A DNA stretch of 64,000 nucleotides from Kocuria sp. (GTDB lineage: Bacteria > Actinomycetota > Actinomycetes > Actinomycetales > Micrococcaceae): the NCBI RefSeq assembly GCF_030538595.1, contig NZ_JAUNTS010000008.1, positions 1-64,000 on the forward strand, in the 5' to 3' direction. The translations under genes and the position numbers were made by a program. Shown here in pieces: positions 5,501 to 47,537 of the stretch. Below the pieces are notes generated by a model. That model saw only the letters and a program-made list of their open reading frames with translations, searched no databases and had not been told where the DNA came from. Within the stretch, counting starts at the first letter, position 1; every line of letters starts with the position of its first letter.

Positions 5501-7009
<1,509 letters not shown>

Positions 7010-7060
7010 CTAACGCTCACCCTCCTTAGCCTGCTTCCCGAAAGCTCTCACCGCTGCGGC

Positions 7061-7130
7061 GGGCGAATTGGTGGGGGCTTCCTTGACCTGCTTCGCTTGA
7101 CGGTCTACGGAAGCCCCCACCAACCCGCCC
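7061..7130 (-). repeat. Conserved-loop hairpin A
   Basis: A 15-bp perfect stem pairs 7068-7082 (TTGGTGGGGGCTTCC) with 7109-7123. Past an AA/CC internal mismatch, a further 5 bp pair (7061-7065 with 7126-7130). The interior 7083-7108 is 26 bases. Read on the minus strand it has a 4-bp inner stem GACC/GGTC around the loop GTCAAGCGAAGCA. It is inverted relative to copies B and C. Confidence 0.85.
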
Positions 7131-7163
7131 TCGGAGGTAGTCCAGGATTTCCTATGGGCAGAA

Positions 7164-7229
7164 GACGACGACGGGCGCCCTCCGTAGGCCGTCAAGCGAA
7201 GCAGGCCAAGGAGGGCGCCCGTCGTCGTC
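7164..7229 (+). repeat. Conserved-loop hairpin B
   Basis: A 20-bp perfect stem pairs 7164-7183 with 7210-7229; the arm ends GGGCGCCCTCC. The interior 7184-7209 is again 26 bases and contains the inner stem GGCC/GGCC around the same 13-base loop GTCAAGCGAAGCA as copies A and C. The outer stem shares no sequence with A or C. The inner stem replaces the A:T pair of A and C with G:C, a compensatory change. Confidence 0.85.
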
Positions 7230-7244
7230 AGTGTGAAACGGGAG

Positions 7245-7298
7245 GTGGCAGAGGTCCCGCGGACCGTCAAGCGAAGCAGGTCAAGGGGCCTGTGCCAC
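7245..7298 (+). repeat. Conserved-loop hairpin C
   Basis: A 14-position stem pairs 7245-7258 (GTGGCAGAGGTCCC) with 7285-7298, with one mismatch and one G-T wobble. The interior 7259-7284 is 26 bases, with inner stem GACC/GGTC and loop GTCAAGCGAAGCA. It begins 18 bases past the argG stop codon (argG is on the minus strand), so it would be the first structure in the argG 3' region and could help terminate or stabilise that transcript. Confidence 0.8.
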
Positions 7299-7315: not shown

Positions 7316-8527
7316 TCAGAGACCGTCGGCGGCCAGGCGCTGGTCGCGGGCGGAGGCCACCTTGGAGGACATGCCGAAAAGTTCGATGAACCCGCGGGCC
7401 TGGGACTGATCGAACGAGTCGCCTTCGTCGTAGGTGGCCAGGTTGAAGTCGTACAGGGAGGTGTCCGAACGGCGCCCGGTCACAGTGGCTTTGCCTGCGT
7501 GCAGGGTCATGCGGATGTCGCCGTTGACGTAGCGCTGGGTGTCGTCCAGGAACACGTCCAGGGACTTCTTCAGCGGGGAGAACCACTGGCCGTCGTAGAC
7601 CAGTTCGGTCCAGCGCTGACCCACGGTCTTCTTGAAGCGGGCCTGTTCGCGTTCGATGGTGACGTTTTCCAGCTCCTGGTGAGCGGCGATCAGGGCCATG
7701 GCACCGGGGGCTTCGTAGATTTCACGGGATTTGATGCCCACCAGACGGTCTTCAACAATGTCGATCCGGCCAACACCCTGTGCACCGGCGCGGCGGTTCA
7801 TCTCCTGGATGGCTTCCAGGGGGGTCACGGGGCGGCCGTCGATGGCTACGGGGATGCCCTGGGAGAAGGTCAGCACCACTTCATCGGGTGCCGGGGCAAA
7901 GGCGGGGTCATCCGTGTAGTCGTAGACGTCCTTGGTGGGGGCGTTCCAGATGTCCTCCAGGAAGCCGGTTTCAATGGCGCGGCCCCACACGTTCTGGTCA
8001 ATGGAGAACGGGTTTTTCTTGGTGGTGGCAATCGGTAAATCGTTGCGCTCGGCGTAGTCGATGGCCTTTTCGCGGGTCAGAGCCAGGTCACGAACGGGTG
8101 CAATGCACTTGAGGTCCGGGCCCAAGGTCTGAATGCCCACCTCAAAACGGACCTGATCATTGCCCTTGCCGGTGCAGCCGTGGGCCACGGTGGTGGCACC
8201 GAACTTCTTGGCGGCATCCACCAGGTGCTTGACGATCACCGGTCGGGACACTGCGGAGACCAACGGGTAGGAATCCATGTAGAGGCCGTTGGCTTTCAAC
8301 GCCGGCATGCAGTATTCGTTGGCGAACTCGTCACGGGCATCTGCCACCACGGCCTCCACGGCACCACAGTCCAGGGCTCGCTGGCGGATGGACTCCAGAT
8401 CCTCGCCGCCCTGTCCAACGTCCACGGCACAGGCAATGACCTCCGCTCCGGTGGCTTCACCGATCCAGCCGATGGCCACGGAAGTGTCCAGACCGCCTGA
8501 GTAGGCGAGTACAACGCGCTCGGTCAC
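7316..8527 (-). CDS. argG: Argininosuccinate synthase
   Basis: Joins citrulline and aspartate with ATP to give argininosuccinate. The P-loop AYSGGLDTS lies at residues 8-16, and [13 protein letters not shown] is present. Chosen start is GTG at 8527, preceded by AAGGAG at good spacing, giving 403 residues, the normal size; the open frame continues upstream to 8578 without family resemblance. ArgR-box-like sequences and a TATAGT -10 lie immediately upstream. In this genome argG is separated from argCJBDFR by an acyl-CoA ligase block of about 4 kb and so needs its own promoter. Confidence 0.97.
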
Positions 8528-24439: not shown

Positions 24440-24495
24440 CACCGGTTGTTGTTGAGACCACCGGCTACAGGCGGTGTTCTCAACAACAACCGGTG
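24440..24495. repeat. DUF559-flanking hairpin, copy 1
   Basis: An 18-bp perfect stem pairs 24440-24457 (CACCGGTTGTTGTTGAGA) with 24478-24495. The 20-base interior has a further CACCG/CGGTG inner stem around GCTACAGG, leaving one C/T mismatch between stems. It ends three bases before the complement of the DUF559 stop codon. Near-identical to the copy at 25639-25704. Confidence 0.85.
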
Positions 24496-25638: not shown

Positions 25639-25704
25639 GAGAGCACCGGTTGTTGTTGAGACCACCGGCTTTAGGGGGTGTTCTCAACAACAACCGGTGC
25701 TCTC
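25639..25704. repeat. DUF559-flanking hairpin, copy 2
   Basis: A 23-bp perfect stem pairs 25639-25661 with 25682-25704; the arm contains CACCGGTTGTTGTTGAGA, identical to copy 1. The 20-base interior differs from copy 1 at only three positions. It ends 10 bases before the Nudix stop codon, so it sits downstream of the Nudix gene and upstream of the DUF559 gene. The stretch 25486-25638 between it and the DUF559 start shows no trusted promoter. Confidence 0.85.
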
Positions 25705-47468: not shown

Positions 47469-47537
47469 CTCCGCCGAGATCATGGTTTGTGGAGGATTCC
47501 GGGCGAAAAATTGAGAGGAACCATGATCTCGGCGGAG
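47469..47537. repeat. Long hairpin abutting the recX stop codon
   Basis: A 19-bp perfect stem pairs 47469-47487 (CTCCGCCGAGATCATGGTT) with 47519-47537, around a 31-base interior that contains GGGCGAAAAATTG. The recX TAA complement begins at 47538, the next base. Probably ends recX transcription. No U-run follows the stem, and the AT-rich segment sits inside the loop. Confidence 0.8.

Follow-up and report, generated by a model that had tools for sequence, protein, structure and literature searches.

Hairpins at the ends of genes are usually regarded as sequence-free stoppers whose loops are irrelevant. Iron-responsive elements are hairpins whose apical loop is fixed and whose stems are free, and they are read by a protein (aconitase/IRP); the attC sites of integrons are hairpins of variable sequence located behind genes, which are read through their folded bottom strand and whose orientation is tied to the gene. 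REP elements, according to excerpts of PMC2817692 and PMC3733652, carry a GTAG head 5' of their palindrome. The hairpins described in our study, which we call core hairpins, reverse the usual picture of gene ends: across three genera, and at sites that include rpoB-rpoC and argG-argH, their loop is kept and their stem is rewritable. They belong to a known kind, the gene-end palindromes, and what appears to be new is their conserved apical core.

The stretch of DNA analysed here, the window, comprises 64,000 nucleotides (C18:1-64000) of a Kocuria genome of 3.14 Mb (G000). Its argG gene, for argininosuccinate synthase (7316..8527, - strand; Pfam PF00764 and PF20979), points with its 3' end towards three hairpins, A, B and C, and downstream of these lies argH, for argininosuccinate lyase (5501..6949, - strand; Pfam PF00206 and PF14698), in the same direction; the limits of both genes come from a codon-score gene caller. 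The positions given for the three hairpins in an earlier note on this sequence were confirmed, as were the 26-base interior of each and the inner stems that it had described, and the window contains the 13-base loop at exactly three places (7089-7101 on the - strand, 7191-7203 and 7266-7278 on the + strand), which also bears out the remark that one copy is inverted. Hairpin A (7061..7130, - strand; outer arms 7061-7082 and 7109-7130, inner stem GACC/GGTC) is the distal copy, its core lying on the argG/argH strand, and it is also matched by the covariance model presented below. Hairpin B (7164..7229, + strand; outer arms 7164-7183 and 7210-7229, inner stem GGCC/GGCC) has its core antisense to argG, and its outer stem of 20 perfect bp is also present in Kocuria soli and, with one compensated change, in Kocuria subflava. 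Hairpin C (7245..7298, + strand; outer arms 7245-7258 and 7285-7298, inner stem GACC/GGTC) adjoins the argG stop codon most closely of the three, again with an antisense core.

The outer-stem lengths had been reported as 15(+5), 20 and 14 bp. Perfect pairing holds over 15 bp in A and 20 bp in B, and the stem of A, with two G-T pairs admitted, grows to 22 bp on the core strand, but the stem of C is not a perfect one, its 14 positions comprising 12 Watson-Crick pairs, one G-T pair and one mismatch. Similarly, the outer stems do differ from each other, but the claim that they share no sequence is too strong within Kocuria, where the stem bases adjacent to the core usually read YTCC/GGAR. When folded as RNA, the core strands of A, B and C reach -53.9, -55.5 and -32.5 kcal/mol (z = -8.9, -11.6 and -4.9), with none of 200 shuffles as stable for any of them; in DNA folds of the six strands, five beat every shuffle, while 24 of 200 shuffles were as stable as the complement strand of C. 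A probable broken remnant of a fourth copy, consisting of one arm and half a core, lies at 7013..7037 and is 84% complementary to 7198-7222. Three copies and a probable remnant inside 290 bases would fit a local duplication confined to the argG-argH gap. We assign this explanation a negligible probability and consider it already refuted, because unlinked loci and other genera hold copies with different stems.

In total, we tabulated 34 copies in 10 genomes from three Micrococcaceae genera, 27 of them with the exact loop (G/A/C)TCAAGCGAAGCA and seven with variant loops, a number that is a floor, since variants come from the model search and exact-pattern searches miss them. The table passed over matches with fewer than two inner pairs, and its 27 exact rows are the 27 hairpin places of the exact-pattern search. 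The 12-mer TCAAGCGAAGCA is present in four of 27 Kocuria genomes: six times in the genome of the window, seven times in G022 (which matches Kocuria subflava YIM 13062), and three times each in G010 and in G018 (which matches Kocuria soli M5W7-7). All 19 of these exact occurrences sit in core hairpins, and the association is therefore not due to chance. The architecture of these 19 copies consists of an outer stem, an asymmetric internal loop with 3-5 bases on its 5' side and 1-3 on its 3' side, an inner stem of 3-5 bp, and the 13-base loop. The variant copies that we accepted are one in G011, two in G018, three in G022 and a weak one in G000.

A covariance model was built on 10 of the 19 Kocuria copies, chosen for their in-register internal loops. 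In this 10-row alignment, covering both stems, 14 of 18 pairs have changed on both sides and 99.4% of the 180 cells are paired; none of 500 shuffles was as good, and sliding the partner by one column reduced the pairing to 45-48%. Searches with the model, in which only the best first-look candidates were scored (150 or 14 per genome), matched eight of the 27 Kocuria genomes at E <= 1, and the hits L032, L033, L034, L039, L052, L058 and L059, together with L272 and L275 in the genus g26, were excluded by eye. L052 (G018:C27:18395-18440) is a plain gene-end hairpin with stem GGCCCCCGGACC and loop GTCAA, resembling the core minus its GCGAAGCA part.

Beyond Kocuria, the model matched eight of 395 genomes of the family. 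Five of these are Kocuria genomes and two are non-members, which leaves G078, from another genus, as the only true new member. In the genus of G078, which we refer to as g26, seven genomes were searched and more core hairpins were found. The exact pattern CNTCAAGCGAAGCAG occurs at 36 places in 18 of the 395 family genomes, and 27 of these places, in nine genomes, are core hairpins: 19 in Kocuria, seven in g26 (three in G100, two in G149, and one each in G163 and G078) and one in g31 (G301). At the remaining nine, in nine other family genomes, no such hairpin was seen when judged by eye, and in the order outside the family (361 genomes) three matched the exact pattern, none as a core hairpin. 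The pattern search recommended in the earlier note thus yielded additional copies in the genome of the window, in other Kocuria, in g26 and in g31. According to that note, a lack of other copies, or copies with a kept outer stem and no covariation, would have reduced the finding to a local duplication; instead, further copies turned up both at unlinked loci and outside the genus, and they have different outer stems and covarying pairs. A related, narrower pattern returned at least 115 stretches from a collection of 84,980 species; among the matches listed, eight have an inner stem of at least 3 and an outer stem of at least 10, and all eight belong to K. subflava or K. soli. An origin from phages or plasmids is without support from our searches, in which 15 stretches of viral contigs carried the core pattern, none of them structured, and a near search of a plasmid collection with the argG-argH region returned two records, covering the argG part only.

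We also considered whether a known RNA family could account for these hairpins, and rejected it. At the gathering cut-off, Rfam gave no match in eight loci; at lax E-values there were 16 matches in four loci, all under their own cut-offs (the best with E 0.025 and 29.8 bits vs 88), several of them eukaryotic microRNA models lying on the hairpins. A literature search found no described element of the same form, which is no proof that none is in print; the earlier note knew of none either. We conclude that the core hairpins are a real family without Rfam annotation, selected for its apical core.

This selection is best appreciated by comparing loop and stems. Taking as inner stem the unbroken run of Watson-Crick pairs, all 27 exact copies have at least three such pairs beside the loop and a further outer stem; the inner stem measures 3 bp in four copies, 4 bp in 14, 5 bp in six and 6 bp in three, and is represented by 12 sequences (GACC/GGTC, GGCC/GGCC, GGAC/GTCC, CGGAC/GTCCG, GAAC/GTTC, GAC/GTC, GCGCC/GGCGC, GCGTGC/GCACGC, GGCCAC/GTGGCC, GCGGC/GCCGC, GGCGGC/GCCGCC and AGC/GCT). 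Position 1 of the loop is G in 22 copies, A in three and C in two. Outer arms were compared over 18 bases, ungapped and anchored on the core, with shuffled arms as control. The strongest support for selection on the core comes from the rpoB-rpoC gap, where the four core-bearing g26 species show no difference in the 12-base core, with a loop identity of 0.96 against 0.37 for the arms, and where the arms past their first six bases are no better than shuffled ones (0.27 vs 0.26). Across ten unlinked loci, the loop identity is again 0.96, and that of the arms 0.43 (0.35 past six bases) against 0.30 when shuffled. At argG, in five species, the loop reaches 0.97 and the arms 0.45 when copy C of the window is used or 0.58 when copy B is used, with shuffled values of 0.35-0.38. 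Only the rpoB stems are at chance level past six bases; between sister species, some likeness is left in the stems at argG and metI (0.45-0.58 vs 0.34-0.38 shuffled), and where these stems can be aligned they differ by compensated changes. The stems at argG are shared in part by descent, as with copy B in K. soli and K. subflava. Both the loop/stem comparison and the covariation support the proposal of the earlier note that a folded strand is under selection through its core, while its stems are held to pairing but not to a given sequence.

Relatives that do not carry the core help to place these results. The argG-argH interval, whose comparison among strains had been suggested, turned out to be a standing hairpin site: among 25 of the 27 Kocuria genomes (the table excludes G001 and G016), five have the core, 19 have another long hairpin, and G020 has none. 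The metI gap, compared in 16 of the 27, shows three genomes with the core, 12 with another hairpin, and again none in G020. This genome is small (2.3 Mb), its argG-argH gap measures 20 bases, and there is no gene-end hairpin either there or in the metI 3' gap. The exact core is absent from G004 and G020, and it was probably lost in both, because their argG identity places them between core-bearing species; an independent gain in G010 and G011 would be a possible alternative. We also considered whether every clade might repeat a terminator loop of its own, and rejected this: 12 of the 27 genomes contain CTCCTAGACTGGAG, once in each except for one genome with two copies.

The patchy distribution raises the question of whether the core is a passenger, now without function and left over from a past spread in which a segment of about 26 bases entered the loops of terminator hairpins already in place. 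The stems resemble the ordinary gene-end hairpins of Kocuria, at least seven of the 34 tabulated loops are variant, and the absence of an exact core from G004 and G020, which lie among core-bearing species by argG identity, would also agree with it. However, the conservation of the 12-base core in all four core-bearing rpoB gaps, next to stems at chance level past six bases, is hard to reconcile with an idle sequence, as is the pairing of the inner stem in every one of the 27 exact copies; moreover, in the argG, metI and rpoB gaps that we examined, no relative has the same stem minus the core, a result that lends no support to the earlier suggestion of an element inserting into host inverted repeats. 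We therefore regard the passenger explanation as quite improbable.

The position of the copies is informative about their likely role. They are located between argG and argH in G000, G018, G022, G010 and G011; between genes for a MetI-type permease and an RseP-type protease in G000, G018 and G022; by the gene of a transglycosylase-associated (GlsB-like) protein in G000 and G022; between rpoB and rpoC, recognised from sequence, in four g26 species; and between gcvT and gcvH in g31. Copies are also present in convergent gaps: between greA and ilvA in K. soli, in K. subflava and, in another genus, in G100, between gntP and a diacylglycerol kinase gene, and in gaps that involve citrate synthase and an OpuAC-type gene. 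Neighbouring genes were named by Pfam or from sequence, with limits from the codon-score caller, and those with Pfam names are mostly housekeeping genes. At 15 of the 16 same-direction loci, a set that excludes convergent gene pairs, the core closest to the upstream gene is antisense to it and lies 35-62 bp past its stop codon (counted by hand; two-sided binomial p = 0.0005). The exception is found at an integrase-family (xerD-like) gene of G022, where the gene beyond is a weak call without a Pfam match. It is important to note that orthologues are not independent, so that by gene family the preference is only five of six, with xerD as the exception. Six same-direction loci have a second, inverted copy: hairpin A in the window, argG in G010, metI in G018 and G022, and rpoB in G149 and G100.

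Two further observations concern what lies past the hairpins. In the rpoB-rpoC gap of G078 (L354), the core hairpin is followed by a probable decayed second core, GCAAGCGAAGCA, oriented like the distal copies elsewhere. In the metI 3' gap of the window's genome (L314), there is a truncated tandem repeat of the core hairpin just past it, GACCTTCTCGCTTGAGGTCC and then the repeated outer arm, which suggests slippage or unequal duplication at the hairpin.

We tentatively favour, with somewhat less than even confidence, an explanation in which these gene-end hairpins are of the terminator or 3'-end type and a putative trans-acting factor reads their conserved tip, most likely on the transcript. As 3' untranslated or intercistronic stem-loops, they would stop transcription or protect or process the upstream mRNA at its 3' end. 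This generic job would fall to the outer stem, of which therefore only the pairing would be kept. The tip would be the recognition module: the 13-base loop (G/A/C)TCAAGCGAAGCA, which reads UGCUUCGCUUGA followed by C, U or G where a proximal copy is transcribed in sense, closed by the inner stem of 3-6 bp and set off from the outer stem by the asymmetric internal loop. The factor, most likely an RNA-binding protein or a ribonuclease, would set the share of the upstream message that ends or survives at the hairpin. The sequences themselves show the fold, the covariation of both stems, the conservation of the loop across genera, the position past the stop codon and the orientation preference, whereas the choice of RNA over DNA as the target, the existence of the factor and its action are inferred. 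Among the readings offered in the earlier note, a putative protein-binding RNA gives the best fit, while the recombinase or nuclease target found no positive evidence, and Y1_Tnp, the REP enzyme family, was found in none of the 27 Kocuria genomes.

Which nucleic acid is read can be approached through the strand properties of the hairpins. For comparison, we took ordinary gene-end hairpins from about 497 kb of the window's genome, 46 of them behind same-direction genes and 37 in convergent gaps. The former have 24 G-T vs 9 A-C non-standard pairs on the sense strand (p = 0.014), the bias that RNA folding is expected to leave, and the latter 22 G-T vs 17 A-C. In the core hairpins, the wobble mark of a folded sense RNA is not seen: the 34 copies have 20 G-T vs 16 A-C on the core strand, and on the sense strand at same-direction loci the hand count is 15 vs 12, or 10 vs 12 minus one decayed copy (core vs ordinary hairpins, Fisher p = 0.19, or 0.05 minus that copy). 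In RNA stability, 21 of the 27 exact hairpins favour the core strand over its complement, by a mean of 2.0 kcal/mol, of which about 1 is given by the core itself in one constructed case; for proximal copies, the core strand is the antisense strand. Sense-strand pyrimidine-rich tails like TCGTCGTCTTCT accompany five of ten proximal Kocuria copies, in the manner of a terminator, none of the rpoB copies has a U-rich tail, and the mean number of T per 10 bases after the hairpin is 2.3 on the sense strand vs 1.7 on the core strand (15 copies). The sequence GCGAAGC, which is contained in the loop, is known to form a DNA mini-hairpin of unusual stability. In favour of the transcript are the location of the hairpins, their orientation and their tails, and in favour of DNA are the inverted pairs, the strand neutrality and the GCGAAGC mini-hairpin; taken together, these features suggest that the tip is more likely to be read on the transcript than on DNA. 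Against the transcript stand the lack of a clear wobble mark, the greater stability of the core strand in 21 of 27 hairpins, the rpoB copies without U-rich tails and the seven of 34 loops that have decayed or varied. In addition, the distal copies of inverted pairs are opposite in sense in all six cases and are equally conserved, and a sense-RNA motif fails to explain them for this reason.

The main rival explanation is a DNA element comparable to REPs or BIMEs, in which the core strand would fold as single-stranded DNA and be bound or moved by a nuclease, a transposase or a chromosome protein, and the inverted pairs would be dimers. Pairs of the same polarity at six loci, few and patchy copies in three genera, wobble pairs without strand preference and the strand bias in stability are all in its favour. 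Moreover, the bases before the inner stem in Kocuria are often G(T/C)(A/G)G, comparable to the GTAG head of REPs in the excerpts cited above, but this head is not kept in g26 and g31. Two of eight core variants resemble enterobacterial REPs better than at least 999 of 1000 shuffles: one outdoes all 1000 shuffles in its likeness to a Citrobacter REP printed in PMC2817692, and one from G100 is equalled by 1 of 1000 in its likeness to a Klebsiella REP; for the other six variants, however, 39-158 of 1000 shuffles were as good. Unlinked copies lack conserved stems, some stems are inherited vertically between species, and a search for Y1_Tnp (PF01797) found it in none of the 27 Kocuria genomes, with the control positive in five of 14 genomes. 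This makes mobilisation in the manner of REP/RAYT through a Y1 (HUH) transposase a rejected candidate for Kocuria, the genus covered by the search, and we consider the DNA element as a whole unlikely.

The inverted pairs also invite an explanation by kissing loops, in which the loops of both partners would pair with each other within a single transcript, through up to 13 complementary bases, and so clamp the intercistronic region. There are six such pairs, and both partners in G100 have A as the first loop base. However, the same A occurs in the third copy of G100, at an unlinked single locus; most loci have a single copy, and the copy table suggests that single copies are equally conserved; the metI partners differ at two loop bases in G018 and at one in G022; and the conservation across genera is left unexplained. 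We thus consider kissing loops very improbable, and return to the gene-end hairpin with a tip that is read by a factor.

An extension of this explanation comes from three core-less g26 species (G135, G119 and G051), whose rpoB-rpoC gaps (L350 2240-2440, L351 1300-1500 and L353 1260-1500, respectively) contain a conserved structured interior of about 66 bases, here called core 2, running from TCGGGGAAAGCCGGATA to GTCGTTCCGGCGGCCCGA within outer stems that differ (CCTCGGG, ACATCGGG and GTATCGGG). Rfam gave no match for the three loci. A 17-base core-2 pattern was found in three of the 355 loci examined, which are these same gaps. A search of viral contigs with the core-2 pattern gave 32 stretches, none with TTCCGGC in the next 90 bases. 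On the basis of one gap in three species, core 2 suggests exchangeable apical modules on generic stems. Gene-end hairpins in Micrococcaceae might then be modular, with the outer stem as a freely rewritten holder and, at the tip, an interchangeable cartridge for which there would be a dedicated reading factor. One such cartridge would be the 13-base core and another core 2, at the same type of gap. We regard this generalisation as doubtful, but if true it would amount to a new layer of post-transcriptional (or hairpin-DNA) control through apical modules.

Other palindromic families are present in the genome of the window. A second family, in which the stem consists of all or part of CTCCGCCGA(A/G)A(A/T)CATGGTT and the loops vary and are richer in AT, accounts for ten copies among 117 hairpins in about 497 kb (window 47469-47537; L191 4088-4154; and L250, L257, L258, L265 and L269); stem differences between its copies are matched on the opposite arm, in a scan that demanded perfect stems. 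A third family, with stem CACCGGTTGTTGTTGAGA or part of it and an interior of 20-26 bases, is located at 24440-24495 and 25639-25704 of the window, where it starts about 3 and 10 bases past stop codons as placed by the codon-score gene caller, and at L267 10144-10209 and 11713-11770. Smaller families have stems with CCCTCACG in three copies (L252 12351, L253 9345 and L264 12201) and with CAATTGTGTG in two (L192 11682 and 15925).

If the tip of the core hairpins is indeed read by a factor, that factor would regulate 3' ends generally, in an actinobacterial group that, to our knowledge, is without Hfq and ProQ. The 13-base target is compact and defined, and the mechanism is directly testable.

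Among described systems, the core hairpins can be compared with intrinsic terminators. They share with them a stable hairpin just after the upstream stop codon (the core follows the stop at 35-62 bp at 15 same-direction loci), a long GC-rich stem of free sequence and, on some Kocuria copies, a pyrimidine-rich tail, and in relatives that lack the core the argG and metI gaps are mostly occupied by a different hairpin. Unlike terminators, whose loops are normally free, with a median interior of 8 bases in our 46 same-direction controls, they conserve a 13-base loop together with the inner stem and internal loop; several lie between codirectional genes that are usually cotranscribed (rpoB and rpoC, gcvT and gcvH; cotranscription is presumed), and the rpoB copies do without a U-rich tail. 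With RAYT-associated REP, BIME and REPIN sequences they have in common that they are palindromic, intergenic, near gene ends and found in inverted pairs, as well as the G(T/C)(A/G)G before the inner stem of many Kocuria copies, which recalls the GTAG (GYRG) head described in excerpts of PMC2817692 and PMC3733652. This head is frequent but degenerate in Kocuria and mostly absent in g26 and g31, and the core hairpins differ from REPs in that 1-10 copies were found per genome and their stems are variable, with an arm identity of 0.43 vs 0.30 shuffled at ten unlinked loci. Like attC sites, they are of variable sequence, stand behind genes and have an orientation linked to the gene, but their neighbours with Pfam names are mostly housekeeping genes and their conserved part is the apical loop. 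The resemblance to iron-responsive elements is one of analogy only, and no relationship is claimed: both have a conserved loop, a short upper stem, an interior asymmetry and a free lower stem, whereas the sequence and size of the loop are different and the core hairpins lie at bacterial gene ends. The core hairpins may work like a terminator or a 3'-protecting hairpin whose tip is read by a protein.
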